Origin: Thermohalobaculum sediminis
GTDB lineage: Bacteria > Pseudomonadota > Alphaproteobacteria > Rhodobacterales > Rhodobacteraceae
Direction: 5' to 3'
NCBI RefSeq assembly: GCF_023487995.1
Contig: NZ_JAMFKN010000009.1
Span: forward strand, 124,001-188,000
DNA length: 64,000 bases
Shown here: positions 18,303-39,531 of the stretch, piece after piece
How positions within the stretch are numbered: the first letter of the stretch is position 1
Layout of the letters: every line of letters starts with the position of its first letter
Notes under the pieces: model-generated
The model's input: the letters and a program-made list of their open reading frames with translations, nothing else
What the model was told of the DNA's origin: nothing
Database searches by the model: none
Position numbers and translations under genes: made by a program

Positions 18303-18311
18303 GGCATTTCA

Positions 18312-18335: not shown

Positions 18336-18338
18336 GCC

Positions 18339-19403: not shown

Positions 19404-19457
19404 GCGCCAGGTTCCGTCGCGGATTTCGCCCCATCCTGCCGGCTGCGCGCGCGCGCG

Positions 19458-19471
19458 CATTGACGCAGATC
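19458..19471. promoter_or_regulatory. FNR/FnrL-type box upstream of the YeeE/YedE gene
   Basis: TTGACGCAGATCAT matches TTGAY-N4-RTCAA at every defined position but the last. It lies 55-68 bp before the transporter's start codon. Confidence 0.45.
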
Positions 19472-22858: not shown

Positions 22859-25048
22859 CTAGGACACCGCGGCGACGTCACGGGCCGCGGTTGCCGCCTG
22901 CGGCCAGCGCGCGCCCCAGAGCCGAAGAAGATCGGCCGAGCCCACGAGCATCTCGTGCTCCTGCGACGTCAGCCAGCGGGCGGCCTGTTCGGGCCGATCC
23001 GCGGCTTCGATCTTGGCGCGCGCGGTGACGCGGGCGATTGTCTGGCTCTCGTCCCACTCGGGCGGCGATCCGATCGAGCGCAGGTGCAGCGCAAGCGCCC
23101 CGGCGTCCTGCGCGAGCGTCTCGATGCGGATCTGCGAGACGGGTTCGAATTCGGCCGCCGCCGCGGCTGCGGCACGCATGATCGCGGGCGGGCTCTCCTC
23201 CTCGGGCGTCACGAGGAGCTTGTGCCCGAGCGCCCAGTCCGCGGCATGGCGCGCGCTGCTCCACCGCGACAGCGCCGGGGCGAGCACCAGCCCCGCGAGC
23301 ACGGGCAGGATCCAGATGACCTGGTTGGGCGCGAACCAAGCGAAGGCCGCCCCGAGCACCAGCCCGGCAACGACGCCCGACCAGTGGCGCGCGAAGGCCT
23401 CGCGCCAGGAAAGCTCCATGCCCTCGCGCTGCTGGCGGCCCCAGCCGGAATCGCGGCCGAGCAGGATCTCGGTCACGTGACGCGCCTGCAGCAGCATCAG
23501 CGTCGGGGCGTAAAGGGCGCTCAACAGCACCTCGAAGACCGTGCTGGCCAGAAGGCGCGCCGCACCCCCGGCGCCCCGGCGGCCGGCGCGGCAGCTCAGC
23601 GCGCGCATGAGCCCCGCGATCTTCGGCAGGAGCAGCAGGCCCATCGCGAGCAGGAACAGGTGCCGCATCCGCTCGGCATCGAACACCGGCCAGTCCGGGA
23701 ACAGCTGCAGGGTGTCCGCGAAATACTCGGGCCGCACCAGCATGGTCTGCGCCGTCAGCACCATGCCGACCAGCAGCATCGCAAGCCAGATGGGCGACAT
23801 GAGATACGCGCCGATGCCGATCGCCATGTGGACCCGGTTCGGCAGCCTCAGCCGGTGCGCGCCGATCACCTTGGCGTGCTGTAGGTTGCCCTGCGCCCAG
23901 CGCCGGTCGCGGACCGCGAGGTCCAGCAGCGAGGGCGGCGCGCCTTCCCAGCTCCCCCCGAGGTCGGGGTCCATGCGGACCTCCCAGCCCGCGCGGCGGA
24001 TCAGCGCCGCCTCGACGAAATCATGGCTGAGGATGTGGCCGCCGAAGGGCTTGCGGCCAGGTAGTTGCGGCAACCCGCAGCTCGCGGCGAAGGCGGGCAC
24101 GCGGATTAGGGCGTTGTGACCCCAGTAGTTGCCGTCGAGCCCCTGCCAGGCCGCCACGCCGCGCGCGATCACGGGGCCGTAGATGCGGCCCGCGAACTGC
24201 TGCAGGCGGGCAAACAGCGTGGTTCCCCCGGCAAGGGCGGGCACGGTCTGGAGGATGCCGAGCCCCGGCGCCGCGTCCATCCGGCGGACCATCTCGACGA
24301 TCGTCGCCGCGTCCATCAGGCTGTCGGCATCGAGCACGAGCATGTAGTCGTAGCGCCCGCCCCAGCCGGTGATGAAGTCGTGCAGGTTCCCGGCCTTCTT
24401 GCCGGTGTTGCGCCAGCGCCGCCTGTACCAGACGGCGACCCGCCCCGCGAGGCGCGCCCTCAGCGCGTTGAAGGCCGCGGTCTCCATCAGCCAGGTGCCG
24501 GGGTCGCGCGTGTCGGACAGGATGAAGATCTCGAAGGCGTTGCCGTGCCCCGCCTCGGCCAGCGCCTCGCCCATCGCCGCAAGCGCGCCGCAGGTGCTCG
24601 ACGGGTCCTCGTTGTAGACCGGCATCAGGATGGCGGTGCGGCCCTTCAGCGGACCCTCGCGCGGCACGTCGCGCCGACCAGGGGCGAACAGGAGCCCGGC
24701 AATCGTCTGCGTGGCCGAGAGCGAGATCCAGCCGAAGGTGATGGTGAACAGGCCCAGCAGCACGAGCTGGAAGAAGGTGCGCGTCTCGTTGCCGAAGACG
24801 AGCAGCATCTGGTCGAAGCCATAGGCCGTCAGCCCCGCGGCGCCGCCGAAGGCGACGAGCCGGGCGAAGGCCGTTTCGACCGACGCGGGCGGAAAGGCGA
24901 CGACCGGCGCGCGGGCAAGCTCCTGCTCGGGCATTTCCAGCGGCGCCGGGGGCGGGGTCGGCGAGTGCAGGAACTCGGCGGGGCGGGCGGGCGCCGGGGT
25001 CGCGGCGGGGCGTGCGGCGATGCCGCGCGGGTCCGATTGCTCGCTCAT
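22859..25048 (-). CDS. opgH: OpgH/MdoH periplasmic glucan glucosyltransferase
   Basis: A 729-residue inner-membrane family 2 glycosyltransferase that builds the glucan backbone from UDP-glucose and passes it to the periplasm. Membrane segments flank a cytoplasmic catalytic domain with ILMPVYNEDPS, VLDADSLMD, GGHILSHDFVEA and the RRWAQGN (QxxRW-type) motif. It is shorter than the enterobacterial enzyme, mainly at the N-terminus. Its ATG overlaps the stop of the upstream opgG gene by four bases, so the two are coupled. Confidence 0.92.
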   Translation of the reverse strand: MSEQSDPRGIAARPAATPAPARPAEFLHSPTPPPAPLEMPEQELARAPVVAFPPASVETAFARLVAFGGAAGLTAYGFDQMLLVFGNETRTFFQLVLLGLFTITFGWISLSATQTIAGLLFAPGRRDVPREGPLKGRTAILMPVYNEDPSSTCGALAAMGEALAEAGHGNAFEIFILSDTRDPGTWLMETAAFNALRARLAGRVAVWYRRRWRNTGKKAGNLHDFITGWGGRYDYMLVLDADSLMDAATIVEMVRRMDAAPGLGILQTVPALAGGTTLFARLQQFAGRIYGPVIARGVAAWQGLDGNYWGHNALIRVPAFAASCGLPQLPGRKPFGGHILSHDFVEAALIRRAGWEVRMDPDLGGSWEGAPPSLLDLAVRDRRWAQGNLQHAKVIGAHRLRLPNRVHMAIGIGAYLMSPIWLAMLLVGMVLTAQTMLVRPEYFADTLQLFPDWPVFDAERMRHLFLLAMGLLLLPKIAGLMRALSCRAGRRGAGGAARLLASTVFEVLLSALYAPTLMLLQARHVTEILLGRDSGWGRQQREGMELSWREAFARHWSGVVAGLVLGAAFAWFAPNQVIWILPVLAGLVLAPALSRWSSARHAADWALGHKLLVTPEEESPPAIMRAAAAAAAEFEPVSQIRIETLAQDAGALALHLRSIGSPPEWDESQTIARVTARAKIEAADRPEQAARWLTSQEHEMLVGSADLLRLWGARWPQAATAARDVAAVS

Positions 25049-26697
25049 CGCGTCACCGTCCAGCGGTAGAGCCATGTCTCGGACTGCCGCTGGCCCGCCT
25101 CGTTCTCGAGCGCGAGCTGCAGTTCGGCCGCCTCTGCATTTCCCGGCTCGAACACGAAGGCCGCGCGCAGCATCTGGCCACCCGGCAGCGGCGTCAGCGT
25201 GACAGGCGACACTGCGCCGGCGCTGGCCGTGACGAGGCCGCGCGGCATCCCCACGCTCTCGGACGGCAACGCGAAGTCGATCACGAAATCGCGCTTCGTG
25301 CGGTCGTGCATCGAGATGCCGCTGCGCGTGGTCCTGACCCGCGCGAGGGGGGCCGCGTCGGGTGGCGTCGCGCACCAGTGCAGGCGGTAGGCGAACTCGT
25401 GGCCCGCCTCGGATGGCTGCAACGGCTCGCGCGGCCGCCAGAAGGCGACGATGTTGTCGTTGAATTCGTTCTCGACCGGGATCTCGACGAGCATGACTGT
25501 GCCGGGCCCCCATTCGCCCAATGGCTCCACCCATCCGCTCGGGCGCCGATCATAGCGTGCTTCGGCGTCCTGGTAATGGCTGAAATCGAGCGGGCGCTGC
25601 GTGAGGCCGAATCCCTTGGGATTCTCGTCGACGAAGGCCGAGATCTCGACCCTTGCGGGGTTCGTGAGCGGACGCCACAGCCGCGTCCCCTGGCCGGTGA
25701 TCATCTGCAGGCCCGCGCTGTCATGCACCGCGTCGCGGAAATCGTCGATCCCTGCGCGCTGTTCGGGCCCGAAATAATACATCGAGGTAAGCGGCGCGAT
25801 GCCGATCTGGTCGATCTGGGTCCGCGGGAAAAGCCGGCAGCGGGTCTGCATCACCGTCGTCTCGCCCGGCCTGATCTCGAACTCGAAGGCGCCGGTCACC
25901 GAGGGACTGTCGAGCAGCGCATGGACGAGGATGTCGCGCGCGTCGGGACGCGGCTCGTGGATCCAGAAATTGCGGAAATGCGGGAACTCCTCGCCCCGCG
26001 GGTCGGCGGTCGCGATCGCGAGGCCGCGGGCCGACAGCCCGAAGATCATGTTGCGCGCGATGCCGCGAAAGTAGCTTGCGCCCTGGAAGACGAGGAATTC
26101 GTCCAGCACGTCGGGGCTGTTGATCGGGCTGCGCAGCCGGAAGCCGGTGAAGTCGAGCCCGTCGCCGGCCCCGGAAGGCGCGCGCCCGTCGGGGAAGGGG
26201 AAGTGGCTCGCGTCGAAGTCGAAGAGGTCGGACGAGAAGGCGAGGTCCTCGACCGCGGCCTGCCGGACGATCGAGATGCTCACCCGCTGGCGGTAGACCG
26301 ATCCGGGCGGCAGGAGGTCGATGGCGAACGCGCTGCCCGAGCCTGCCAGCGGACGGGCATCCGCGCGGAAGCGGATGGCGCGGTACTGATCGTATTCGAG
26401 ATTCGCGAAGGGCGCGCGGAGGGTCATCGCCGGGGCCGCGTAGTCCTTCGACGCCCGGTCCCGCGCCAGTGCGACGAGATCTGCGAAGTCGAAGGGAGGG
26501 GTTGCCGCCGGAGTCTCGGCGAGGGGTGCATCCGGTACCACCGCCGCCCCGGCGGCCTGCTGGGCCGACGCGGCACCCGCGGCGACGGCGCCGAGAACGC
26601 CGGCGCCTGCTCCGGCGATGAAGCCGCGGCGGCTGATCGTCCCGGATGGCGGCGCGGGCCGCGTCGTGGACATCGGGGTCGGACGGGATCGGGACAT
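25045..26697 (-). CDS. OpgG/OpgD-family periplasmic glucan protein, first copy
   Basis: A 550-residue Tat-exported protein (TISRRGFIAGAGAGVLGAVAAGAASA) with the MdoG domain from about residue 70 to the end. Family motifs include FDFADLVALARDRA, NPKGFGLTQRPLDF, YDRRPSGWVEP and a C-terminal Ig-like part. Members of this family (GH186) are beta-1,2-glucanases or transglycosylases. A Tat rather than Sec signal is more typical of OpgD. The start at 26697 follows GAGGAGACAG. It is the promoter-proximal partner of opgH. Confidence 0.9.
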   Translation of the reverse strand: MSRSRPTPMSTTRPAPPSGTISRRGFIAGAGAGVLGAVAAGAASAQQAAGAAVVPDAPLAETPAATPPFDFADLVALARDRASKDYAAPAMTLRAPFANLEYDQYRAIRFRADARPLAGSGSAFAIDLLPPGSVYRQRVSISIVRQAAVEDLAFSSDLFDFDASHFPFPDGRAPSGAGDGLDFTGFRLRSPINSPDVLDEFLVFQGASYFRGIARNMIFGLSARGLAIATADPRGEEFPHFRNFWIHEPRPDARDILVHALLDSPSVTGAFEFEIRPGETTVMQTRCRLFPRTQIDQIGIAPLTSMYYFGPEQRAGIDDFRDAVHDSAGLQMITGQGTRLWRPLTNPARVEISAFVDENPKGFGLTQRPLDFSHYQDAEARYDRRPSGWVEPLGEWGPGTVMLVEIPVENEFNDNIVAFWRPREPLQPSEAGHEFAYRLHWCATPPDAAPLARVRTTRSGISMHDRTKRDFVIDFALPSESVGMPRGLVTASAGAVSPVTLTPLPGGQMLRAAFVFEPGNAEAAELQLALENEAGQRQSETWLYRWTVTR

Positions 26698-27025
26698 CTG
26701 TCTCCTCAGGCGCGACACTGCAACACCCACCCCGAAACGCGCGCAGCCCCTCGCAGTCATGCGGTCGAGAAGCGGAGCCGTGGCCGGATGACTCTGCCGA
26801 CGCGGCACTTCCGCCGCAGGCCGCACAAAATCGGGCTGCTAAATAATGAGCATTCCCGCGCCCGACAATAAGGAGAGTGGGCGTGGCGCAATCGCAACGC
26901 AAAGAAAGATATTTGAGTTTCGCCGCACTCGGCAACCCCACCCATGAATCCCGTCCCAAGCTCGCCTCATTTCTGAACACATTCTGGCCGCGTGGGTTCC
27001 TGGGGTGGATGTGTCCGGGCGGGGG
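26698..27025. other. Divergent intergenic region, opgG copy 1 / ABC transporter
   Basis: This 328-bp stretch must hold the promoters of both divergent operons. Bases 26830-26960 are clearly richer in A/T than the surroundings. No convincing palindrome was found. An AAGGAG precedes a GTG at 26877, but the 75-codon frame it opens overlaps the ABC gene and looks unlike a protein. Confidence 0.5.
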
Positions 27026-29257
27026 ATGGTTCGCGGTAGGGTACAGGCTTTCGGTGAGTCTCGGGCGGTCGCGCCATGGCGCGGGACCGGGGGCGAGGCG
27101 CTGATCGCAGCCCGGATCTGCACGCTGGCCGCGATGGTCGGCTTCCTGCCCATCGTCCTCGCCCACGCGCCGCCCGAGGTGGCCCAAGCCCTTTCCGAAC
27201 ACGGCGTCCGCGCGGCTCAACTCGCCGCGGCCGCCCTTGCCGCGATCGCGGCGATGGATTTCCCGGCTGTTGCGGCCTGGCTCGACCGCGCCATCGGGCC
27301 GGATCGTCTGCGGCGCCCACTGGTCCGCGCCGGCCGCACGCCCGTCTCGCACATGCGCGGCTTCTGGGGGTTGCTCGGGGCCTATTGGGTCTCGGAGCGG
27401 TGGGTCGAGGCCTGGGCGTTGACGATCGGCATGTTCGGCCTCACCACCCTCATCAGCAAGAGCAGCGTCTGGGCCGCGACCTCGAGCGCCGATTTCCTGA
27501 ACGCGCTGGTCCGCTTCCACAGGCCCGAGGACGGCATGGAGCCGGTCTCGTATCTCGTCACGGCGGTCGCGGTCTTCGCCGCCGTCCATCTCGGGCGGAT
27601 CGGGGCGAGCGGCATCCGGCACCTGTGCTCGAGCACGCTGCACCGCAAGGCGCGGGGATGGACTCAGGCGCAGTTCTCGGGCGCGATCCTCGCCCGCCAC
27701 CATGTCGCCGCGAGCCTGATGAGCGACCGCGACACCGGCCGCGGCGCGCGGCTGCCGGACAACATCGACCAGCGGGTCGACGAATGCACGATGAACGTGT
27801 TCGCCGGCCTCGTCGGGCTTGCAATGGGGGTCTGGGGCGCGATCGCCTCGATCTACTTCATCTCGGTCGCGGTGATCGAGCGCTCGACCGAGGTCGCCTT
27901 CCTCGAGCGCTGGGCGGCCGCGGCCTCGGCGTTTCTGGGGCGCCACCTTGGCATGGGCCCGGTCGATCTCACGCCGGGCGAGTATGGCAGCGCGCTCCTC
28001 GTGCTCCTGCTGGTGCTGGTCTATGTGCCCGTCGGGCTCGCGATCGCTTGGCGGATGGGCCGGGTGCTCGAGCGCCAGACGCTGGCGCAGCAGAGCGCGG
28101 GCGGATCGTGGCGCGGCGAATACAACGCCATGCTGGCCCGCGCCCCGCAGCTTGCCGCCTCGCACGGGCAGAAGGTGCAGGCCCGCGTCAATGGCCGGCT
28201 CTACACGGCCGTCGATGGCGTGTGGCACCGGGTGAACATCACCCGGTTCAACTTCATGGTGTTCACTGACGCCTACAATTTCATGGCGAACCGCCTCGTG
28301 GCCTACCTGCCGGCCCTCCCGGCCTTCCTCGAGGGGGGCATGAGCTTCCGGCGCTATTCGGCGACGTCGGAGCTGGTCGCCCAGTTCATCAACGACACCT
28401 CGTGGTTCATCCATGTCATGCCGGCGCTGGCGACGCTCAAGGCCAATGCACGCCGCCTCAACGAGCTCGCCAACGCCATCGAGGACGTGCAGGAGCGCTC
28501 GGATTTCTACGCGCGGACGGGCGTGTCGGACTTCCGGTTCCACAGCCAGGACGCGGCGCTGGGCGTGTCGGTCCCGAGGATCGAGCTCAGCCATCGCGGG
28601 CACGAGGCCGCGCCGTTCCTGCGGGCCAAGGGGCTCGTGTTCCGGCCGGGGCAGTGGGTCTATGTGCGCGGCGGCAATGGCTGCGGCAAGAGCAGCCTGA
28701 TGAAGGCGATCGCCGGCCTGTGGCCCTACGGCAAGGGTGAGATCGTGCTGGGCGAGGGTGCGCGCTGCTTCTTCGCCGGGCAGGACCCGGACCTGCCGGT
28801 GCGGCTGAGCCTGCGCGAGTTGGTCTGCTACCCGGCCCTCGAGGACGAGCATGCCGAGCGCGAGGTCGCGGCGGCTCTGGCCGAGGTGGGGCTCGGCAAG
28901 TTCATCCGCCACATGGACGCGGCACTGCACGACGGCCTGCCGTGGCAGAGCGTGCTGAGCGGCGGCCAGCGCCAGCGTCTCGTGCTCGCGCGCATCCTTC
29001 TCCATCGCCCCGACGTGCTGCTGCTGGACGAGGCGACCTCCGCACTCGACCCCGACGCGGTGCGCGAGTTCCACCTGCTGCTGCGCGAGCATTGCCCCCG
29101 GGCCGTGGTTCTCAGCGTCATGCACGACGCCGAGATCCCGCGCGACCCCGGGGGGCGGCCGTTCTACGCGAGGATGCTGCTGATCGCCGATGGCGAGGCG
29201 CAGCTCGTTCCCCTAGACTCGCTGCCGGCCGGTCGCGAGGCGATCGCCGCGGAGTGA
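27026..29257 (+). CDS. SbmA/BacA/ABCD-like ABC transporter, fused membrane and ATPase domains
   Basis: A 743-residue half-transporter. The N-terminal half has about six membrane segments and the NIDQRVDECTMN motif typical of the ABC_membrane_2 (SbmA/BacA/YddA) group. The ATPase follows with Walker A GGNGCGKSS near residue 550, signature LSGGQRQR and Walker B VLLLDEATSALD. Bac/Sbm relatives move peptides, vitamin B12 or lipids; here the glucan genes on both sides suggest export or retrieval of a glucan, which is inference. The start is uncertain: GTG at 27005 or 27011 is possible. Confidence 0.85.
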   Translation: MVRGRVQAFGESRAVAPWRGTGGEALIAARICTLAAMVGFLPIVLAHAPPEVAQALSEHGVRAAQLAAAALAAIAAMDFPAVAAWLDRAIGPDRLRRPLVRAGRTPVSHMRGFWGLLGAYWVSERWVEAWALTIGMFGLTTLISKSSVWAATSSADFLNALVRFHRPEDGMEPVSYLVTAVAVFAAVHLGRIGASGIRHLCSSTLHRKARGWTQAQFSGAILARHHVAASLMSDRDTGRGARLPDNIDQRVDECTMNVFAGLVGLAMGVWGAIASIYFISVAVIERSTEVAFLERWAAAASAFLGRHLGMGPVDLTPGEYGSALLVLLLVLVYVPVGLAIAWRMGRVLERQTLAQQSAGGSWRGEYNAMLARAPQLAASHGQKVQARVNGRLYTAVDGVWHRVNITRFNFMVFTDAYNFMANRLVAYLPALPAFLEGGMSFRRYSATSELVAQFINDTSWFIHVMPALATLKANARRLNELANAIEDVQERSDFYARTGVSDFRFHSQDAALGVSVPRIELSHRGHEAAPFLRAKGLVFRPGQWVYVRGGNGCGKSSLMKAIAGLWPYGKGEIVLGEGARCFFAGQDPDLPVRLSLRELVCYPALEDEHAEREVAAALAEVGLGKFIRHMDAALHDGLPWQSVLSGGQRQRLVLARILLHRPDVLLLDEATSALDPDAVREFHLLLREHCPRAVVLSVMHDAEIPRDPGGRPFYARMLLIADGEAQLVPLDSLPAGREAIAAE

Positions 29258-29312
29258 CGGCCGCGGCCCCCCGCGCCGGCGGCGGAGCGGCGGGAGACGG
29301 GGCAGAAAGCCG

Positions 29313-31580
29313 ATGGCGCAGGGCACCAGCATCGACGACCTGATGGCGCGGATGACGCTGGCCGAGAAGATCGGGCAGCTCAATCTCCTCAGTGCCGGCG
29401 AGGGGCCCGAGACGGGCAGCCCGCGCAGCCGCGACATCCGCGCGCGGCTGGCCGAGGGCCGTCTTGGCGCGCTGTTCGGCACCAAGTCGGTGCGCTCGGT
29501 CCGGGCGTGGCAGGAGCTTGCGGTCGCGGGCTCGCGGCACGGCATTCCGCTGCTGTTCGCCGAGGACGTGATCCACGGCCATCGCACCATCTTTCCGTTG
29601 CCGATCGCGCTCGCCTCGTCGTGGGACATGGCGCTGGTCGAGGCGACCGCGCGTGTCGCCGCGGCCGAAGCGGCGGCCGAGGGGATCCGGCAGGTCTATG
29701 CGCCGATGGTCGATATCGCCCGGGATGCCCGCTGGGGCCGGATCGCCGAGAGCCCCGGCGAGGACCCCTTCCTTGCCGCCCGCTATGCCGAGGCGATGGT
29801 CCGGGGCCTCCAGGGCGCGGACCTCCGCGCGCCGGACGCGGTGGCCGCCTGCCTCAAGCATTTCGTCGCCTACGGCGCGGCGGCTGGCGGGCGCGACTAC
29901 GACAATGCGAGCCTCGCGCCCGCCGAGCTGATTGGCGTTTATGCCGAGCCCTTCCGGGCCGGGGTGGCGGCGGGGGCGGCGAGCGTCATGGCGGCCTTCA
30001 ATGCCGTCAACGGGCAACCCATGCACGCGCATCGCAAGCTGATCGACGGCTGGCTGCGCGGGACCTGCGGCTTCGAGGGGTTGGTCGTCGCCGACTACAC
30101 CGGCATCCACGAGCTGATGGCGCATGGCATCGGCGACCGCGAGACGGTGGCGGCGCTCGCGCTGGTTGCGGGGGTCGACATCGACATGATGGGCGAGGAC
30201 TACCTCGCCTGTCTGGATCGGATCGCCGCCGAGGGCCTTGTCCGCCCGGATGTTGGAATCGAGATCGACCCGGCACAGGTCGTCGAGGCGATCGACCGCT
30301 CCTGTCGGCGGGTGCTGGAGATGAAGGAGCGGGTTGGGCTGTTCGACGATCCGTTCCGCTACTGCGACGAGGCCCGCGCCGCACGCCTCACTCTCGCGCC
30401 GGCGCACCGCGATCTGGCGCGCCGGGCCGCGGCCGCCTGCTGCGTGCTGCTGAAGAACGCAGGCGGGGTGCTGCCGCTGGCGCCCGGCGCGCGGGTGGCG
30501 CTGATCGGGCGGCTCGCGGACGACCGCGCCAACATGCTGGGCACATGGGCGGTATCGGGCGACCCGGCCGAGGCGGCGACGATCCTCGAAGGGCTGCGCG
30601 AGACGCATGACGGCGAGGTGCGCCACGCGGTCGGCGCGAACCTGGTCGATGATCCCGAGATCGCAGCCCGACTGGACGTGTTCGGGCCCATCGTGCGTCT
30701 CGACCCGCGTCAAGAGCGCGAGATGACCGCCGAGGCCCTCGCCCTCGCCACCGACAGCGATGTCGTCGTGTTGGTCGCGGGCGAGGCGAAAGAGCATTCC
30801 GGCGAGAGCGCAAGCCGCACCGAGCTCGACATCCCGGCGCCGCAGCGGCGGCTCCTCGAGGCGCTGGCCGGGGCGGGCAAGCCCGTCGTCCTCGTGGTGC
30901 TGGCGGGCCGTCCGCTGGTGCTGGCGCGCGAGGCCGGGCTTGCGGATGCGCTGGTGCTGGGCTGGTTCGGCGGAACCGAGGGCGGCCGCGGCCTCGCCGA
31001 CGTGCTGACCGGCCGCGCCGAGCCTGGCGGGCGGCTCGCCGTCTCGCTGCCGGCGCGAACGGGGCAGGTGCCGCTGCATCACGGCGCCGAGACGACCGGC
31101 AGGCCCTGGACCGGGCGGTTCGAGAAGTTCCGCACGGGCTATCTCGACCTTCCCGACGACGTTCCACCGGCTGGCGGGCTCTATCCCTTCGGCTTCGGAC
31201 TCGGCTACACCGACTTCGAGCTGGACGCGCCCCGCGTCACGCCCACGAGGCCGACGGGCGGGGACAGGTACGTGACGGTCACGGTGGCGGTCCGCAACAC
31301 CGGCGCGCAGCGGGGGGCCACGGTGGTGCAGCTATATGTCACCGACCCGGTGGCACGCTGCGTCCGGCCCTCGCGCGAGCTGAAGGGCTTCGAGCGGGTG
31401 ACGCTCGACCCGGGCGAGGCGCGCGAGGTCGCGTTCACCCTTGGCCGCGAGGACCTCGCCTATCTCGTGGGCGAGACCATCGGCACGCTCGAGCGCGTCT
31501 GGGACCCCGGCACCTTCGTGATCCATGTCGGCCTGAACGCGCGCGACCTTCGGAGCGTCGAGATCGCATGGACCCCCTGA
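29313..31580 (+). CDS. GH3 beta-glucosidase
   Basis: A 755-residue glycoside hydrolase family 3 enzyme with an N-terminal barrel, the second alpha/beta domain and a C-terminal fibronectin III-like domain. The nucleophile is Asp261 in LVVADYTGI; EAKEHSGESASRTEL holds the likely acid/base region. No signal peptide is evident, so it probably acts in the cytoplasm on imported or released sophoro-oligosaccharides. It overlaps the next gene, a GH144 glucanase, by 13 bp, which points to beta-1,2-glucan breakdown. Confidence 0.88.
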   Translation: MAQGTSIDDLMARMTLAEKIGQLNLLSAGEGPETGSPRSRDIRARLAEGRLGALFGTKSVRSVRAWQELAVAGSRHGIPLLFAEDVIHGHRTIFPLPIALASSWDMALVEATARVAAAEAAAEGIRQVYAPMVDIARDARWGRIAESPGEDPFLAARYAEAMVRGLQGADLRAPDAVAACLKHFVAYGAAAGGRDYDNASLAPAELIGVYAEPFRAGVAAGAASVMAAFNAVNGQPMHAHRKLIDGWLRGTCGFEGLVVADYTGIHELMAHGIGDRETVAALALVAGVDIDMMGEDYLACLDRIAAEGLVRPDVGIEIDPAQVVEAIDRSCRRVLEMKERVGLFDDPFRYCDEARAARLTLAPAHRDLARRAAAACCVLLKNAGGVLPLAPGARVALIGRLADDRANMLGTWAVSGDPAEAATILEGLRETHDGEVRHAVGANLVDDPEIAARLDVFGPIVRLDPRQEREMTAEALALATDSDVVVLVAGEAKEHSGESASRTELDIPAPQRRLLEALAGAGKPVVLVVLAGRPLVLAREAGLADALVLGWFGGTEGGRGLADVLTGRAEPGGRLAVSLPARTGQVPLHHGAETTGRPWTGRFEKFRTGYLDLPDDVPPAGGLYPFGFGLGYTDFELDAPRVTPTRPTGGDRYVTVTVAVRNTGAQRGATVVQLYVTDPVARCVRPSRELKGFERVTLDPGEAREVAFTLGREDLAYLVGETIGTLERVWDPGTFVIHVGLNARDLRSVEIAWTP

Positions 31581-32860
31581 ACCCAGGCCTGCCACCGAAA
31601 GGACTGTCGGACGATGCCCTGCTCGACGCCGTCAGCCGCGCCGCGCTCGACTACTTCTGGTCCTTCGCCCACCCCGTCAGCGGCATGGCACGCGAGCGCA
31701 GCGGCGGCAGCTTCGGCTACGACACCGATGCGACCGTGACCACCGGGGGCACGGGCTTCGGCATCATGGCGATGCTGGCGGGGGCGGCGCGCGGCTGGCT
31801 GGACCGGGCGCAAGTCGCGGGCCGGATCGGCCGGATCGTCGATTTCCTGGAGGTGGCCGAGCGTCACCACGGGGTATTCCCGCATTTCATGAATGGCGAA
31901 ACCGGCCGGACGATCCCCTTCAGTCCGCGGGACGATGGCGGCGACCTCGTCGAGACGTCGTTCCTGATCGCGGGGCTTCTTGCGGCGCGTCAGGCCTTTG
32001 CCGGCGAGCCCGGGCTGGTCGCAGGGATCGACCGGATCTGGCATGGCGTCGAGTGGTCCGCCCATCTGCGCGACGGCGGCCGCGAGCTGATGTGGCACCG
32101 CAGCGACCGCCATCCCTGGGACGCGCGAAGCCTGCCGATCCGGGGCTGGAACGAGTGCCTCGTGACCTATGTCCTCGCGGTCGCCTCGCCCACCCATTCC
32201 GTCCCGGCCAGCGTCTATCACGACTGCTGGGCACGGGGTGACCAGTTCCTCAACGGGCGGCGCTATCACGGCATCCGCTTGCCGCTGGGCCCCGCCGGCG
32301 GGGGGCCGATGTTCCTCTCGCACTATTCGTTCCTGGGACTCGACCCGAACGGGCTCGCGGACCGCTATGCCGATTACGGCGAGCAGGTCCGGGCGCATGC
32401 GCGCATCAACCACGCGCACTGCGTCGCGAACCCGCATGGCTATCCCGGCTATGGCCCTGAGTGCTGGGGCCTGACGGCCAGCGACAGCCCGCTGGGCTAT
32501 GCCGCCCACTCGCCGACCGAGGATCTCGGTGTGATCTCGCCCACCGCCGCGGTCGCGTCGATGCCGTATCTGCCGGACTGTGCGATGCGGGCGCTGCGCC
32601 ACTTCGTCGAGGACCGGGGCGCGGCGCTCTGGGGGCGCTTCGGGCTGGTCGACGCCTTCGCGCCGGGCGCGGGCTGGGTGGCGCCGGCGACGCTGGCGAT
32701 CGACCAGGGCCCCATCGTCGTGATGGTCGAGAACCACCGCAGCGGCCTCCTGTGGGATCTCCTGATGTCGGCGCCGGAGGTAAGGGCGGCGCTGCGCGCG
32801 CTGGAGTTCAGAAGCCCCCGCCTCGACGGCACAGACGCGGCATCGCGCGCGAACGCCTGA
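31568..32860 (+). CDS. GH144-type (glucoamylase-like fold) beta-1,2-glucanase candidate
   Basis: A 430-residue (alpha/alpha)6-barrel protein of the glycoamylase-like family that contains the endo-beta-1,2-glucanases of GH144. Recognisable parts are SRAALDYFWSFAHPVSGMAR, the TGGTGFGIMAM segment, RGWNECLVTYVLA and the acidic stretch AAHSPTEDLGVISPTAA. No clear signal peptide is seen at this start. Coupled to the GH3 gene and next to opgGH, it probably cuts periplasmic glucan or its fragments. Beta-1,2 specificity is inferred from family and context. Confidence 0.78.
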   Translation: MDPLNPGLPPKGLSDDALLDAVSRAALDYFWSFAHPVSGMARERSGGSFGYDTDATVTTGGTGFGIMAMLAGAARGWLDRAQVAGRIGRIVDFLEVAERHHGVFPHFMNGETGRTIPFSPRDDGGDLVETSFLIAGLLAARQAFAGEPGLVAGIDRIWHGVEWSAHLRDGGRELMWHRSDRHPWDARSLPIRGWNECLVTYVLAVASPTHSVPASVYHDCWARGDQFLNGRRYHGIRLPLGPAGGGPMFLSHYSFLGLDPNGLADRYADYGEQVRAHARINHAHCVANPHGYPGYGPECWGLTASDSPLGYAAHSPTEDLGVISPTAAVASMPYLPDCAMRALRHFVEDRGAALWGRFGLVDAFAPGAGWVAPATLAIDQGPIVVMVENHRSGLLWDLLMSAPEVRAALRALEFRSPRLDGTDAASRANA

Positions 32861-32867
32861 CGGCCGA

Positions 32868-34238
32868 TCAGCCGCCCGCCAGCCTCGCGCGCACCGTGCG
32901 CCGGCTCTCGACGGCCGAGATGAGCGCGGCGTGGCTCCAGGTCAGGTCGGGGCAGGAGGCGGGCGCGCCCGTTGTTCCGTCGATCTGCTCGGGCAGGCGG
33001 CCGTCGGGAGGCGCATGGTGGCGGACCGCGGCGAGGTAGCGCTCGCCCTCGATCACGATCCGCGCCGCCGCGGCGCCGCGATCGCCCGAGCGCGCGGCCG
33101 CATCGTCGCCGAGGAACGCGCCAAGGGACCTCGACGCGTCCGCCGGCAGCGCCTGGCCGGTCAGAACGCTCCCGGCGAGCGCGAAGTGGAACTCCGCCAT
33201 GCCCAGCGTTGTCGGGATCCACGGGTTGCCGCCGAAAAAGCGATCCGCCGGCCCGCGACCGATCACGGGGAACGCCGCGCTCCAGACCGGAAAGCGGCGC
33301 GCGGACCACTCGACCAGCCATGCCGCGGTCGCGAGGAGGCGCGGGTCCGCCGGGCCGAAGGCGTCGCCCCAATCTCCCGCAATGAGCGCGCCGAGGATCA
33401 CCGCGGCGTCGCTCGCTCCCGGCGCGGCGATGCTCGACGCGCGGATGACGCCGCTTGCCGGATCGGCCAGCCCCCCGAGCGCCGCCTCGATCCGCGCGAG
33501 CGGGGCCTGCGTCGCGGCCTCGGTCAGGACACCCGAATCGCAGGCCGCGCGAAGCGCCGCGCGCTGTGCCATCAGGGTGAAGGCATGGAGGCCGTTTTCC
33601 CCCTCCTCCTCCCACGGGCCGACGCAGGGCGCGGCCGCCTGCGCGACGGTGTAGGCGAGGTCCAGCGCGAGCAGCCGGTCCCCCGCGACCCCGCGCGCCG
33701 CGCCCATCGCCATGAACGACAGCGCCCGCAGGGCCGGCCCGTCATGCTGCGGGCGCGACCAGCGCTCGGCATCGACGCTGCCGTCGAGATTGGCGCGCGG
33801 CTCGCCCAGCAGCACCGGGCCGGCGAGCGCGGCAAGCTCGGCGTCCGGGCGCAGGAAGCGCCGGAACCGGGGCAGGGTGGTCGCCCTCAGCGGGTTGGCG
33901 GCGGGGCCCGGCTGGGTCGCGATCCGCAGGCTGAAGGCGGCATGGTCGCGCATCCGCTCTTGCCACGAAGATGGTTCCCGCACCGCCAGCATGGGTGCGA
34001 GCCGCATGACGACGGCGGCATCGCGGACCCAGTGCCAGGCGTAGTCCGGCATCGGATCCCACCTCGCGCGGTGGCGCGACGCGACGACCGAGCCGGGCGC
34101 CGCGACGATCTGCTGGCCGAATTCGGCCCGCTCGTGCCGGAAATTCTCTGGAGACACGCTCAGCCGCATGGCCTCGCGCGAGGCGCGCGCCTGCGCCTCG
34201 AGCCAGCGGTCGAGCCCGTCCTCGGCCGCCGCGGTCAT
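32868..34238 (-). CDS. GH15 glucoamylase-family protein
   Basis: A 456-residue GH15-like enzyme. Conserved landmarks are the substrate site YAWHWVRDAA (66-75), RPQHDGPALRAL (162-173), the catalytic-acid region PWEEEG (208-213) and the C-terminal LPEQIDGTTGAP with the presumed catalytic base Glu417. GH15 enzymes release glucose from alpha-linked ends. Rhodobacter periplasmic glucans are known to contain one alpha-1,6 bond among beta-1,2 bonds, so the alpha bond is a possible target (inference). It converges with the GH144 gene across seven bases and its start overlaps the hydrolase stop. Confidence 0.8.
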   Translation of the reverse strand: MTAAAEDGLDRWLEAQARASREAMRLSVSPENFRHERAEFGQQIVAAPGSVVASRHRARWDPMPDYAWHWVRDAAVVMRLAPMLAVREPSSWQERMRDHAAFSLRIATQPGPAANPLRATTLPRFRRFLRPDAELAALAGPVLLGEPRANLDGSVDAERWSRPQHDGPALRALSFMAMGAARGVAGDRLLALDLAYTVAQAAAPCVGPWEEEGENGLHAFTLMAQRAALRAACDSGVLTEAATQAPLARIEAALGGLADPASGVIRASSIAAPGASDAAVILGALIAGDWGDAFGPADPRLLATAAWLVEWSARRFPVWSAAFPVIGRGPADRFFGGNPWIPTTLGMAEFHFALAGSVLTGQALPADASRSLGAFLGDDAAARSGDRGAAAARIVIEGERYLAAVRHHAPPDGRLPEQIDGTTGAPASCPDLTWSHAALISAVESRRTVRARLAGG

Positions 34239-35002
34239 CGGCGCCGCCCCGCCGCGATGACCCGCTCGAGCGCCGCGCCCAGCCGCCGCGCGTAGTCCGC
34301 GCCGGTCGGGCAGTGATGCTGGCCGGGCAGGATCTCGAGCGAGACCACGAGCGGCAGGCGCGCGGCCAGCGTCTGCATGTCGCAGGGCGGCGTGAGGCCG
34401 TCCTCGGCGCCGGTCATCAGGGCCACCGGGACGGCGATGCGGTGCGCCGGCGCGATCAGGTCATGGCCCCGCCATTCCGCGAAGGCGCCCGGCACCTCGT
34501 CCCGCAGCGCCTCGAGCGCCTCTGCCCCCATGCGGGCACGCGCAGCAATGAGGGCCGCGCCCGAGACGACGGGAGATATCGCCAGAACCCCCGCGATCTC
34601 GCCCGGCGCGGCTTCGGCGGCCAACCGCAGCGCGGCATGGGCGCCCATGCTGTGGCCGACCAGCAGCATGCCGCAGCCACTCCCCGCCGACAGTGAGGCG
34701 CGCGCCCAATCCGATACATGCCCCAGCGCCTCGATCTGCCCGGCCATGGTGAAGCGGTCCGGCCGCCCGGCACCCTCGCCGGCCGGCGAGTTCGGCAGAT
34801 GCGGCGCGACGACCTTCAGCCCCCGGCCGAGGCACGCGCGCACCACGGGTTGCATGTGCGGCTGATCTGGGCTGCCGCTCCGGCCATGCGCGATCAGCGC
34901 GAGGCCGCGGGGCGCCTCGCGCGGTGTGTAGACATCGACCGGAAGCCGCCCGGCCGCCGTAGGGGCCGGGAGCGTCGTGCGGACCGGCGCCATCTCGCCC
35001 AT
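34235..35002 (-). CDS. Dienelactone-hydrolase-like alpha/beta hydrolase
   Basis: A 255-residue hydrolase with the nucleophile elbow GHSMG (Ser118), an acid in LMTGAEDGLTPP and a late GQHHCP histidine. It has no signal peptide. Its stop overlaps the GH15 start by four bases and the second opgG lies 48 bp upstream, so the three form a leftward operon. Removal of acyl substituents from the glucan or its fragments would fit, but the substrate is unknown. Confidence 0.75.
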   Translation of the reverse strand: MGEMAPVRTTLPAPTAAGRLPVDVYTPREAPRGLALIAHGRSGSPDQPHMQPVVRACLGRGLKVVAPHLPNSPAGEGAGRPDRFTMAGQIEALGHVSDWARASLSAGSGCGMLLVGHSMGAHAALRLAAEAAPGEIAGVLAISPVVSGAALIAARARMGAEALEALRDEVPGAFAEWRGHDLIAPAHRIAVPVALMTGAEDGLTPPCDMQTLAARLPLVVSLEILPGQHHCPTGADYARRLGAALERVIAAGRRR

Positions 35003-35050
35003 GCCGTCAGCCCCCGCGCCGGCCCGGACGGCGCGACGCCCGGCCCCGCA

Positions 35051-36631
35051 TCATCCCTTCCGGTCGGTGGTCGCGAGCGCGACCCAGGTTTCGGTCAGCG
35101 CGGCGTCGCCCCGCCTAAGATACGCGCGAAGCTGGACCGGCTCGGTGCCCGTGGCGCGGAAGTCGAAGCTGAGCCGCCAGCGATCGGTTCCCACGACCGG
35201 GCGGCAGCCGATCGGGCCCAGGATCTCACCGCCCACGGCCTCGATCACGGGCTCGACGCCGCTTTGGACCGTGAGGCCCTTGAGCGCCGCGCCCTGGAAG
35301 TCGATCACCATCTTGTCGATCCCCTCGGGGATGTCCTGCCCAGGCGCGCCGCCCTGGCCCTGGCGGGTCGAGAAGACGCGGGCGACGGTGGGCTCGGGGT
35401 CGCGCTCGCCCCAGACGATGCGGTAGTCGAAGGACAGCATCTCGCCCGGCGGGGGAAGCTCGGCGGGCGACCAGTAGGCGACGATGTTGTCGAAGGTCTC
35501 GTCCACGGTCGGGATCTCGATCAGCTGCACCGCGCCCTTTCCCCAGTCGCCGACAGGCTCGATCCAGGCCGAGGGGCGGCGGTTGTAGAACACGCCGTCG
35601 TCCTGGTAGTTCTCGAAGGCGCGGTCGCGCTGGATCAGGCCGAAGCCGCGCGGGTTCTGGTCGAAGAAGCTCGAGGTCCGCACGACGCTGGGATTGCCCA
35701 GCGGGCGCCAGATCCGCTCGCCCGCGCCCGTCGCCAGCGCGAGCCCGTCGCTGTCGTGGATCTCGGGCCGCCACTCGTCGGCGAGGATCCGGCTGCGCTC
35801 GGAGAACCAGTACATGCTGGTGAGCGGCGCGATGCCGAGGCGCTCGACCGCGCGGCGCAGGAACAGCCGGGCCGAGATCGTCGTCACGTGCGGCTCGCCC
35901 GCGCCGCCGCGCCTGAGCCCGAACTGGTAGGCGCCCGAGACCGAGGGGCCGTCGAGCAACGCCCAGGCGGTCAGCGTGTCGGCCGGATCGACCGGCGGGC
36001 CGATCCAGAAATGGCTGAAGCGGGGGAACTCCTCGGGCTTGGCAAGCCCCGTGTCGATGGCGAGGCCGCGCGCCGAGAGGCCGTACTGGCCGAGCGGCCC
36101 GTCGGTCCTGAAGTACGAGGCGCCAAGGAACGACACCCAGTCGGGCGCGAGCCCCGGCCGCATCACGCGGAAGCCCGCGAAGCCCACATCCTCGGGCAGA
36201 TCGCGCGCCGGGCTGTCGTCGGGCATCGAGAAAAAGTCCCGCCGGTAATGCACCTCGCGGGCGGTGCCGTTCTCGACCAGGTGGACGCGGACGGGCTCGC
36301 GGAAATAGCGGCCGGGATGGAACAACTGGATCGGCGCCGACGCGCCGACATGCATCAGCGAGGCATCGTCGCGGAACCGGATCTGCCAGTGCGCATCATA
36401 GTCGATCTGCTCGATCTGCTCGGGCACCGCGATCACCGGCGGGCGGTAGGGCTCGGCGGCCGCGCTCCGGGCGAGCGCGACGAGGTCGGGGAAGGAGAAG
36501 GCCGTGGGCGGGCCCAGAACAGGCAGCGTCTTCGCCTGGGCCAATGCGCCCGGCACCGGGCCAGCCATCAGGGCGGCGAGGCCAGCGAGGCCGCCTGCGG
36601 AAAAGTGACGACGGGATAGCTCCGTTGACAC
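35051..36631 (-). CDS. OpgG/OpgD-family periplasmic glucan protein, second copy
   Basis: A 526-residue paralogue of the 25045-26697 protein, also Tat-exported (ELSRRHFSAGGLAGLAALMAG). Shared motifs are FSFPDLVALARSAA, GIAPLTSMYWF, NPRGFGLIQRDRAF and YNRRPSAWIEP. It starts at GTG with GGAGATATCGC upstream. Two family members in one locus suggest split roles, for example hydrolysis versus cyclising transglycosylation, as known for different OpgG/OpgD enzymes. Which does what cannot be told from the sequence alone. Confidence 0.88.
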   Translation of the reverse strand: MSTELSRRHFSAGGLAGLAALMAGPVPGALAQAKTLPVLGPPTAFSFPDLVALARSAAAEPYRPPVIAVPEQIEQIDYDAHWQIRFRDDASLMHVGASAPIQLFHPGRYFREPVRVHLVENGTAREVHYRRDFFSMPDDSPARDLPEDVGFAGFRVMRPGLAPDWVSFLGASYFRTDGPLGQYGLSARGLAIDTGLAKPEEFPRFSHFWIGPPVDPADTLTAWALLDGPSVSGAYQFGLRRGGAGEPHVTTISARLFLRRAVERLGIAPLTSMYWFSERSRILADEWRPEIHDSDGLALATGAGERIWRPLGNPSVVRTSSFFDQNPRGFGLIQRDRAFENYQDDGVFYNRRPSAWIEPVGDWGKGAVQLIEIPTVDETFDNIVAYWSPAELPPPGEMLSFDYRIVWGERDPEPTVARVFSTRQGQGGAPGQDIPEGIDKMVIDFQGAALKGLTVQSGVEPVIEAVGGEILGPIGCRPVVGTDRWRLSFDFRATGTEPVQLRAYLRRGDAALTETWVALATTDRKG

Positions 36632-36852: not shown

Positions 36853-37695
36853 TCATCGGCGATCCTCGCCCGGATCGAGGGCATGGCCGCTGGCGGGGCC
36901 GCGGACGGGCTGGACCAGCATCCGGTCGAGCCAAAGGTCGCGGGCGGTGCGGAACTGCTCGATCCCGATCTGCATCCCCTCGTGACCGCGCGCGGGTTGG
37001 GCCACGTAGGTGCCGAGCAGCCGGTCCCACCAGGGCAGGTTGAAGCCGTAGTTCGAGTTGGTCTCGCGCGGGTCGGACGAGTGGTGCACGCGGTGCATGT
37101 CGGGCGTCACCACCAGCAGCCGCAGCACGCGGTCCACCGGGCGCGGCAGATCGATGTTCGAGTGGTTGAACAGCGCCGTCGCATTCAGCACCACCTCGAA
37201 CAGCAGCACGGCGACGGCTGGCGGCCCCAGCGCCGCGACGACGGCGAGCTTGATGCCCATCGAGATCACGATCTCGACCGGATGGAAGCGCAGCCCCGTG
37301 GTCGCGTCGAAGTCGAGGTCGGCATGATGCATCCGGTGCAGCCGCCACAGCCCCGGCACCGCGTGGAACATCACGTGCTGCAGATAGATCGCGAGATCGA
37401 GCAGCAGCATCGAGGCGATGATCGCGACCCATGCTGGCGCCTCGATGTTGTTGAAGAGCCCCCACCCCCGTTGCTCGGCCATGACCGCGAGGCCGACCGC
37501 GAGGATCGGGAAGGTCAGCCTCAGGATCGCCGTGTCGAGCACGACGAGCGCGAGATTGTTGGTCCACCGGATCACCCGCGGGATCTCGCGCCGGCGGCGG
37601 GGCGCGGCGACCTCCCACAGCATCATGCCCGCCAGAACCCCCAGGAAGGCGGCGAGGCGCAGCGCAGGCTCGTGGGCGAGGATCGTCTGGGCCAT
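36853..37695 (-). CDS. Sterol desaturase/fatty acid hydroxylase-family membrane protein
   Basis: A 280-residue membrane di-iron protein. The three histidine clusters are HVMFH, HRMHHADLDFD and HRVHHSSDPRETNSNYG, with about four membrane segments around them. Members hydroxylate or desaturate lipids; the substrate here is not identifiable. The start at 37695 (MAQTILAHEPALR) is preferred over 37755, which adds a proline-rich tail. It stands alone between the glucan island and an AraC regulator. Confidence 0.85.
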   Translation of the reverse strand: MAQTILAHEPALRLAAFLGVLAGMMLWEVAAPRRRREIPRVIRWTNNLALVVLDTAILRLTFPILAVGLAVMAEQRGWGLFNNIEAPAWVAIIASMLLLDLAIYLQHVMFHAVPGLWRLHRMHHADLDFDATTGLRFHPVEIVISMGIKLAVVAALGPPAVAVLLFEVVLNATALFNHSNIDLPRPVDRVLRLLVVTPDMHRVHHSSDPRETNSNYGFNLPWWDRLLGTYVAQPARGHEGMQIGIEQFRTARDLWLDRMLVQPVRGPASGHALDPGEDRR

Positions 37696-38014
37696 GGGCA
37701 GTCGCGGTCTCTCCGGCGTGAGCGGGCCTGTGGACGGGGCGGGAGCCGTCCGCAATCAAGCCAAGATCGTCTATCGGCGCGGGGCCACCCGGGTCAACCG
37801 ACGCAAGGGCCTCCCGTATCGACGCCGACGCCCTCGTCGCGCGCGCCCCCTCCACGACCGGGCCGCCTGACGGGGTGCGCTCGCCGGGGAGGCCGACTCC
37901 CGGACGATGCGGCGTTTTGGACAACGGCGATGGTTCATCGGAAATTTGATTCCCGTTGATTCTGCGTCATAACCTTCGCGAGATATTAACGTCCTGCGAC
38001 AAAGGAATTTCCGC

Positions 38015-39055
38015 ATGGTCGCGCGAGCGAAGCCGGCCGCATCGATGCCAATCGCGTCGTCGGCGGTCCGGTCGAGGGTGGTCACGACCGACGATTTCGA
38101 CCCGCCGATACGGTACGAGGCGTGGCGCGAGCAGATGCTCGGGATCAACGAGGTGATCGTCGATCCGGGCTGTCGGCCAGGGTTCTCGGCGCGCGTCGAG
38201 CATTGGCAGCTTGGACGGATGCAGCTGAGTGACAAGCGGACGCCGGCGATGCGCCTCGTCCGCCGGCAAGGCGACGCATCGAGGGACGGCCACGACGAGC
38301 TGGTGCTGCGGGTCACGCGCCGGGGCGTCGGTTCCAGCGCGGCAGGTGACCGCCGGTTCAGCGCGGGTCCCGGCGAGCTCGTCATCGAGTCGCTCACCGA
38401 AGGTTACGAGGACATCTGGACCGAGGCCGAATGGGTCACGCTCAAGGTGCCCAGGGACCTTTTCCCCGGCCTTGAGGAGACCTTCGCGACCATCGGGCCC
38501 GGCCCCGTGGCTGGCACCGCCGCGCGGCTTCTGGCCGATTACCTGCTCGCCTTGCCGGCACGGCTTCCCTTGGCGACCGAGGCGGAGCTGCCGATGATCG
38601 CCGGGATGACGCGGTCGATGATCGCGCATTCGCTGCTGGGCACGCAGGGGCCGAGGCTCATGTCCCCGTGCGATTTCGAGAGCGTGGCGCGCGCGCAGGT
38701 GGGCCGCGTGATCGACCAGCATGTCGGCTCGGCCTGCCTGACGCCCAGGCGGATCTGCGATCTGACCGGGATATCGCGTTCGTCGCTCTACCGCATGTTC
38801 GAGGGCGTGGGCGGTGTCGCGAACCACATCCAGCAGCGCCGGCTGCAGCTCGTCCACGCCGCGTTGTGCGACCCGGCGCGGGCGCATGAGCGGATCTCGA
38901 CCATTGCCGAGCGCTTCGGCTTCCACTGCACGAGTTCGTTCAACCGGACGTTTCGGCGCGCCTATGGAATGACACCCGGCGAGCTGCGCGCGCTGGCGCT
39001 CGGGGCCTCGCGGACCGGGGTCGTCCTGCCCGCCATTAACCGGCAGGCGTCTTGA
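38015..39055 (+). CDS. AraC-family transcriptional regulator
   Basis: A 346-residue regulator with a ligand-binding N-terminal domain (about 1-230) and a two-HTH AraC domain near the C-terminus, including LTPRRICDLTGISRSSLYRMF and ISTIAERFGFHCTSSFNRTF-REAY-like MTPGELR. The start follows AAAGGAATTTCCGC. It is divergent from the sterol-desaturase-like gene, 319 bp apart, which could be its target. The effector is unknown. Confidence 0.88.
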   Translation: MVARAKPAASMPIASSAVRSRVVTTDDFDPPIRYEAWREQMLGINEVIVDPGCRPGFSARVEHWQLGRMQLSDKRTPAMRLVRRQGDASRDGHDELVLRVTRRGVGSSAAGDRRFSAGPGELVIESLTEGYEDIWTEAEWVTLKVPRDLFPGLEETFATIGPGPVAGTAARLLADYLLALPARLPLATEAELPMIAGMTRSMIAHSLLGTQGPRLMSPCDFESVARAQVGRVIDQHVGSACLTPRRICDLTGISRSSLYRMFEGVGGVANHIQQRRLQLVHAALCDPARAHERISTIAERFGFHCTSSFNRTFRRAYGMTPGELRALALGASRTGVVLPAINRQAS

Positions 39056-39138
39056 GCGGCTGCGGCGCATCGCACGGCCATGGTCCGGCCGGAGGGGGCA
39101 TTTCGGCGCTACGCCTTCGGGGGCGGGCGCTCGATCGC

Positions 39139-39531
39139 CTACTCCTCGAAGAGGCCCGTGGCATCCCGGTCGCGCTCGTATCGTCTCGCGACCGGAAACG
39201 GCGGAAGCCATGACTCGCGCCGCACGGTCCAGATCTCGTAAGTCGGCGTCAGTTGATCCGGGGCATCCAGCGAGCCGAGGTTCACTTCCACCTCGTCCAC
39301 GCTGCGCCCGAACACCGGCGATCCGCATCGCGGGCAGAAGAAGCGCCCGGCAAACTCGCGTGTCTCGCCCTCGACCGTCACCGAATCCGCCGGGAACACC
39401 GCCGATGCGTGAAAGAGCGCCCCGTGATGCTTGCGGCAATCGAGGCAGTGGCAAAGTCCGATCCGGTACGGGCGCCCGGACGCCACGATCCGGACATTGC
39501 CGCACAGGCAGCCGCCAGTAAATCGTTCCAT
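39139..39531 (-). CDS. GFA/CENP-V-family zinc protein
   Basis: A 130-residue protein with the zinc-binding cysteine pattern of the glutathione-dependent formaldehyde-activating fold: GGCLCGNVR, CHCLDCRK and FFCPRCGSP. The start at 39531 follows GGAGGAGATGCGGC. Most members have no proven substrate. It converges on the AraC gene and no operon partner is evident. Confidence 0.85.
   Translation of the reverse strand: MERFTGGCLCGNVRIVASGRPYRIGLCHCLDCRKHHGALFHASAVFPADSVTVEGETREFAGRFFCPRCGSPVFGRSVDEVEVNLGSLDAPDQLTPTYEIWTVRRESWLPPFPVARRYERDRDATGLFEE

Follow-up and report, generated by a model that had tools for sequence, protein, structure and literature searches.

A conserved gene cluster of Thermohalobaculum sediminis with a predicted role in the synthesis, import and breakdown of a periplasmic beta-1,2-glucan

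A 64,000-nucleotide stretch of the Thermohalobaculum sediminis genome (contig NZ_JAMFKN010000009.1, positions 124,001 to 188,000; here called the window) carries eight genes at positions 22859-36631, namely opgG, opgH, an ATP-binding cassette (ABC) transporter, GH3, GH144 and GH15 proteins, an alpha/beta hydrolase and a second GH186 protein. Our analysis suggests, with rather more confidence than doubt, that this locus makes a periplasmic beta-1,2-glucan, imports it through the ABC transporter and degrades it in the cytoplasm. More tentatively, we propose a dedicated recycling of osmoregulated periplasmic glucan, in which a YddA-type ABC protein would take up the ring in one piece, and GH144 and GH3 would degrade it completely with the help of a GH15 subfamily adapted to its only alpha-1,6 junction. 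The locus combines known protein families in a new way and offers specific candidate roles for the GH15 protein and the YddA-like transporter, and no report of such a recycling pathway was found in the open-licence literature among the matches listed.

That the organism might recycle its own glucan had been suggested before by a reading of the DNA without database searches (the sequence-only reading). The comparative evidence strengthens this idea considerably, as the genes form a conserved module in genomes that all encode GH186. The site of breakdown had to be revised, as it is probably cytoplasmic and not periplasmic.

Conservation of the module and its co-occurrence with GH186

The contigs of GTDB were scanned with two short peptide patterns derived from a GH15 alignment. 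The scan matched 137 stretches, of which 88 could be confirmed, and all locus counts refer to the best 80 of these 88. The GH15 scores leave a gap between 193.7 and 291.5 bits, which separates 44 loci (at least 291 bits) from 36 others (below 194 bits). The phylogenetic tree agrees with this split, since the 44 loci and the window form one GH15 clade of 45 members with a support of 100/100. Hosts of the clade include Paracoccaceae, Roseobacteraceae, other Alphaproteobacteria and Gammaproteobacteria, and its 44 members are not independent because genera recur, Paracoccus above all. The hidden Markov models (HMMs) used for annotating the loci came from the window together with five loci from its family, three of which recur in the set of 44 (L005 being the same record as L044, L018 as L053 and L020 as L080; loci are given here by L numbers and genomes by G numbers).

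GH144 was found in 43/44 clade loci, 42 of them by HMM score; the 43rd is L073, whose contig breaks off next to GH15 and retains just the C-terminal end of GH144. In L077 GH15 itself is cut by the contig end, and a PF10091 protein is encoded on another contig, so that GH144 is present in 44/44 genomes. GH3 and the ABC match were each found in 40/44 loci, the alpha/beta hydrolase in 26/44 and OpgH in 11/44. In the other 36 GH15 loci the same HMM annotation detected neither GH144 nor GH3, GH186, OpgH or the hydrolase nearby (0/36), and an ABC match in 2/36. Within the clade the genes occur in at least four orders (represented by L044, by L078 and L092, by L082 and by L096), which speaks for a functional association and not merely for an inherited neighbourhood. 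The gathering of these genes, first noticed in a single stretch, is therefore a conserved feature, and the possibility that the module is unique to this genome was rejected in view of five other family genomes and the 44 GTDB loci.

GH186 is encoded in 44/44 clade genomes, compared with 44/332 genomes of a class sample and 180/394 genomes of a family sample. It was not found in any of the 35 genomes with the other 36 GH15 loci (two loci come from one genome), which is a weak control because these genomes mostly belong to other lineages (Bdellovibrionota, Pseudoalteromonas); the class and family rates are the fairer comparison. In the class sample, besides the window, G569 carries a full-length GH15 of the locus type and G712 a fragment, both with GH186; these counts leave out four weak GH15 matches (G561, G605, G039 and G764).

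In the family sample, full-length GH15 of the locus type occurs in six genomes including that of the window, and GH144, GH3, ABC and GH186 share the stretch with it in 6/6. Four more of the 394 genomes have GH144 (E<1e-100) with no GH15 found. GH186 is present in 10/10 family genomes with GH144, that is in the six with and the four without GH15, as against the overall family rate given above. A weak GH15 match (G227) and two weak GH144 matches (G094, G150) were left out of these counts. In the four GH15-less loci L035-L038 (G358, G202, G236 and G097) the ABC match, GH3 and GH144 stand together; L036 has another ABC match on the far side of GH144, and the ABC match of L037 lies on the opposite strand. 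GH186, GH15 and the hydrolase were not found near GH144 in the stretches fetched from these four genomes, of which G358 has the module at a contig end and thus an incomplete neighbourhood.

In G712 and in G121 of the family sample, which have GH15 fragments only, no PF10091 protein was found in the genome, as if GH15 and GH144 had been lost together. The G712 fragment is a truncated C-terminal part (L195:9301-10226) beside an apparent insertion-sequence transposase open reading frame (ORF), judged from its first residues only. In G121 a cluster-type alpha/beta hydrolase (L021:8788-9925) adjoins the GH15 fragment, which covers model positions 3-88, and this locus is a probable remnant of the module.

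Enzymes, transporter and the probable site of breakdown

The GH144 protein is the only PF10091 protein of the host genome and, among solved GH144-type proteins, matches the endo-beta-1,2-glucanase CpSGL (5gzh) with E=5.7e-133. It keeps D139, E142 and E211 (the general acid) of CpSGL as D126, E129 and E196; the CpSGL numbering was matched by hand to PMC12102758 (here and below, statements on cited papers refer to their accessible parts). In the alignment including the window, E196 is present in 43/43 sequences and D126 and E129 in 42/43 (one gap). The GH3 protein has 3u48, 5xxl and Lin1840 as relatives in the PDB, and its D261 and E498, which we take to be the catalytic Asp and Glu, are found in 41/41 aligned sequences; 5xxl is presumably BT_3567, an enzyme preferring beta-1,2 bonds. 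With their catalytic residues kept and such solved relatives, GH144 and GH3 could well cut the beta bonds, as had been supposed.

The GH15 protein matches PF00723, and its model, with a predicted local distance difference test (pLDDT) score of 94, has the fold of a single-domain glucoamylase with fungal glucoamylases as top fold matches. The catalytic Glu pair is conserved (E210 in 45/45 sequences, E417 in 44/45 with one gap), its counterparts in Aspergillus niger being presumably E179 and E400. From its gene company, the protein may cut alpha-1,6-linked glucose from a beta-1,2 chain. The triad of the alpha/beta hydrolase is S118 and D201 (27/27 sequences, window included) and H229 (22/27), and we propose the protein as a putative glucan deacylase. 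The residue counts given here leave out the alignment rows labelled D135, which are displaced by one residue.

Signal peptides were scored with a home-made hydrophobicity rule, not SignalP, and the proteins of the window were judged by eye. In the clade loci none was detected on GH144 (0/42) or GH3 (0/40) and a single doubtful one on GH15 (1/44, L045, which resembles an alanine-rich helix), while GH186 scored positive in 18/19; five of 26 alpha/beta hydrolases were also positive. In the window, stop codons close the frame upstream of GH3, and the upstream frames of GH144 and GH15 sit inside the preceding gene. Breakdown in the periplasm was therefore rejected. Because the three hydrolases have no recognisable signal peptide while GH186 does, the glucan is probably imported by the ABC protein and then degraded in the cytoplasm. 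An importer is needed if the product is periplasmic and the enzymes are cytoplasmic, and the ABC protein fits this role.

The ABC protein of the window matches ABC_tran with 72 bits and ABC_membrane_2 below threshold (19.4 bits, cut-off 24.4). Its AlphaFold model (mean pLDDT 77) appears to join a membrane domain of the SbmA/ABCD kind to a single ABC ATPase, with Rv1819c (6tqe) as top PDB match followed by ABCD3 and ABCD1; the exporters McjD and MsbA match as well. The label SbmA/BacA-like given to it by the sequence-only reading is thus fair on the strength of the modelled fold. The 40 ABC matches of the clade comprise 28 close and 12 divergent relatives, and Pfam was run on nine of them. All eight divergent relatives tested have ABC_membrane_2, SbmA_BacA and ABC_tran; L048, the only one of the 28 close relatives in this Pfam run, matched ABC_tran and gave no match to a membrane-domain family. 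The divergent relative L076 aligns with Rv1819c (6tqe) at 2e-70 in phmmer. According to PMC13316013, no function is known for the YddA family of such transporters. Import of glucan by the ABC protein is suggested by the cytoplasmic enzymes together with the periplasmic substrate.

On the side of synthesis, the best NCBIfam MdoH score of opgH is 813 bits, under the cut-off of that model (864), whereas three other MdoH models were passed or approached, two of them over cut-off with 759 and 682 bits. The start of opgH is most likely the ATG at 25048 and not 25534, the first 162 residues of the 891-residue ORF being read-through over opgG. The genome encodes only two PF04349/GH186 proteins, both in the locus, and an OpgC domain elsewhere, which counts in favour of the pathway proposed below. 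Both GH186 proteins have a twin-arginine stretch at the N-terminus (RRGFIAG and RRHFSAG), in keeping with the claim of two OpgG/OpgD paralogues predicted to be exported by twin-arginine translocation.

The nearest PDB chain of the second one, opgD2, is XccOpgD (8x18), an alpha-1,6-cyclised beta-1,2-glucohexadecaose synthase. In detail, opgD2 has equivalents of XccOpgD W/Y76, D343 and R477 (Y78, D345 and R477), of the catalytic D291 and D379 (D293 and D381), of E376 and of Q431 (Q432), and a short loop A without the GW motif. The first, opgG1, fails the three-marker comparison with Y, A and T at XccOpgD positions 76, 343 and 477. These three residues have been proposed to mark synthases of alpha-1,6-cyclised glucohexadecaose, with Tyr tolerated in place of Trp76 (Motouchi et al., PMC11228985), and the XccOpgD product was handled with the beta-glucosidase BtBGL and CpSGL together (PMC11228985). 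As opgD2 bears the XccOpgD markers, it is predicted to be an alpha-1,6-cyclase, and a ring with one alpha-1,6 bond, which had been assumed from Rhodobacter glucans, is plausible for this locus.

For the clade, 77 GH186 matches were obtained and 60 regions fetched, which together with the copies in the loci themselves gave 85 aligned rows (79 distinct over the core). GW occurs anywhere in the loop A region in four rows, representing three distinct proteins (L124, L080 and L072). In the genome of L082, a gammaproteobacterial metagenome-assembled genome of Panacagrimonas with a GH15/GH144/GH3 cluster, one GH186 (L126) has the exact XccOpgD markers W/D/R and a second (L124) the GW in the loop A region.

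Proposed pathway and alternative explanations

In the pathway we propose, OpgH would build the chain and place it in the periplasm, where the two exported GH186 proteins would trim and cyclise it, probably closing it with one alpha-1,6 bond. Once the cell has no more need of the glucan, as might happen when the osmolarity rises, it would be brought into the cytoplasm by the Rv1819c/YddA-like transporter, where the alpha/beta hydrolase may strip acyl groups and GH144 would open the ring at beta-1,2 bonds. GH3 would trim glucose from the non-reducing end up to the alpha-1,6-linked unit, GH15 would take this unit off and GH3 would finish the chain. GH15 would thus have a reason to be in the locus, because the alpha-1,6 unit would block an exo-acting beta-glucosidase.

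Several observations weigh against this pathway. GH186 lies within the locus in only 15/44 clade loci, by which its adjacency was rejected as a requirement. The full-length GH15 of G569 stands alone in the 20 kb fetched, where no other module gene was found; that genome has GH144 and GH186 at other places, GH3 and ABC having been sought only within the 20 kb. No GH186 was found in G048, whose relative of GH144 is weak (E 3e-27, 33% identity). The four family genomes with ABC, GH3, GH144 and GH186 and without GH15 mean that GH15 is not always needed or that their glucan differs. Tyr at the position of XccOpgD W76 is also found in E. coli OpgG (alignment read by hand) and was therefore rejected as a lone marker, so that only the complete marker set is informative. 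Few clade members have this set, so that the size of the ring, or even its closure, may differ within the clade. Finally, transport of cobalamin by Rv1819c is reported to run in both directions (PMC10960864), so the transporter family does not settle the direction of transport.

The cluster could instead feed on beta-1,2-glucans of other bacteria, imported by the ABC protein and degraded by the three hydrolases, with the opg genes as neighbours through shared regulation. Uptake clusters for beta-1,2-glucan are indeed described in Listeria and Streptomyces (PMC12369401), GH186 was not found in the fetched flanks of 29/44 clade loci (some of them cut by contig ends), and the four GH15-less family genomes carry ABC, GH3 and GH144 without adjoining GH186. 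However, all clade genomes encode GH186, no secreted GH144-type depolymerase was found in the loci, as GH144 scored no signal peptide in 42/42, and we regard a foreign source of the glucan as unlikely. Alternatively, GH15 may serve glycogen or maltodextrin metabolism and be placed here by chance or in a general sugar island, leaving the beta-1,2-glucan to GH144 and GH3. In fold and catalytic pair it corresponds to ordinary glucoamylases, and the remaining set does occur without it in the four family genomes; yet GH144 accompanies it in nearly every clade locus and in every clade genome, in several gene orders, such a linkage was not found at the 36 other GH15 loci, and in G121 and G712 a fragmentary GH15 coincides with the lack of a detectable PF10091 protein. 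Taken together, these points make an unrelated GH15 distinctly improbable.

Most ABC proteins with a type IV fold are exporters, and rhizobial cyclic beta-1,2-glucan is exported by NdvA/ChvA. By analogy, the ABC protein might be an exporter and the cytoplasmic hydrolases might clear misplaced glucan, which the matches of McjD and MsbA to its model would allow. In E. coli, however, OpgH releases its product into the periplasm (PMC11842490), and since GH186 is exported as well, an export step is not needed. Moreover, the top fold match Rv1819c imports cobalamin (PMC10960864) and SbmA imports peptides (PMC13316013), and we give the exporter explanation very little credence in comparison with import of the glucan.

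Related systems and organisation of the locus

Clusters with a beta-1,2 endo- or phosphorolytic enzyme, a beta-glucosidase and an ABC transporter are known from Listeria (SOGP/GH3/ABC), from Streptomyces (GH193/GH1/ABC) and from GH144 clusters, and resemble the locus in this respect. The Listeria and Streptomyces clusters differ in having an ABC importer with a solute-binding protein, and neither glucan synthesis genes nor GH15 are named for them in the accessible part of PMC12369401. The beta-1,2-glucanases of PMC12102758 were cloned without their N-terminal signal peptides, whereas the GH144 proteins of the locus natively show none. Most clade members differ from XccOpgD in lacking the full marker set.

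The window ABC protein shares its fold with Rv1819c, YddA and SbmA/BacA, and the divergent relatives tested share their Pfam families. The cargo reported for Rv1819c and SbmA is cobalamin and peptides (PMC10960864), so that glucan as cargo is our proposal. A partial precedent is OpgH-EstG-BglX of Caulobacter, where EstG and BglX have been described as enzymes of glucan metabolism with a genetic interaction with OpgH (PMC11389396). In that organism opgH is the sole opg homologue and the glucan is reported to be a cyclic hexamer; GH144, GH15 and the ABC module are not mentioned in the accessible text (PMC11389396). In the use of cycloisomaltooligosaccharides the ring is likewise taken up and opened in the cytoplasm, but the linkage is another one, the importer has a solute-binding protein and the ring is not derived from the own envelope (PMC13084667). 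The review PMC11842490, as far as accessible, does not name an enzyme for cleavage of the alpha-1,6 bond in cyclised beta-1,2-glucan.

If our proposal is true, these periplasmic glucans are a recycled pool, comparable to peptidoglycan in its recycling, and the module supplies candidate proteins for each step of the pathway. A YddA-like transporter would also gain its first cargo and a function, and a new activity would be added to GH15. Periplasmic glucans occur widely among Proteobacteria and play a part in osmotic adaptation and host interaction.

The host belongs to Thermohalobaculum and not to Rhodobacter; its genome has 4.31 Mb, the locus lies on one of its contigs, and a congeneric genome in our sample (G001) is that of Thermohalobaculum xanthum. 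The eight genes that had been named from the sequence are all present at their positions, with the start of opgH corrected (Table 1). They form three groups, of which ABC-GH3-GH144 is encoded on the plus strand and both opgGH and GH186-hydrolase-GH15 on the minus strand. Overlaps occur between opgG and opgH (4 bases), GH3 and GH144 (13 bases) and hydrolase and GH15 (4 bases), whereas GH144 and GH15 are convergent and 7 bases apart. Of the coupled operons described earlier, the short overlaps within the groups are borne out; the three groups would be operons judging from the gene spacing.

Table 1. Genes of the glucan locus (window positions) with predicted functions
Gene or product	Position	Strand	Basis
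opgH (MdoH), membrane beta-1,2-glucan synthase	22859..25048	-	NCBIfam MdoH models
opgG1, GH186/MdoG with twin-arginine signal	25045..26673 (ORF start possible from 26826)	-	PF04349, 574 bits
ABC transporter, membrane domain fused to ATPase, Rv1819c/YddA/SbmA-like, putative glucan importer	27005..29257 (start uncertain)	+	Pfam, AlphaFold model
GH3 beta-glucosidase, BglX-like, signal peptide not visible	29313..31580	+	Pfam, NCBIfam BglX 671 bits (cut-off 666)
GH144 endo-beta-1,2-glucanase (predicted), signal peptide not visible	31568..32860	+	PF10091, 235 bits
GH15 protein, putative remover of alpha-1,6-linked glucose, signal peptide not visible	32868..34238	-	PF00723, 93 bits
Alpha/beta hydrolase, Ser-Asp-His triad, putative cytoplasmic deacylase of substituted glucan	34235..35002	-	Pfam
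opgD2, GH186 with twin-arginine signal, predicted alpha-1,6-cyclising transglycosylase	35051..36631	-	PF04349, 594 bits

To the left of the locus (window 17046-19460) a flavocytochrome c sulfide dehydrogenase flavoprotein and a protein of the Sulf_transp family (PF04143) are encoded. To its right (window 36853-44102) lie genes for a fatty acid hydroxylase, an AraC-type regulator, a GFA-domain protein and an HlyD/AcrB-type pair.

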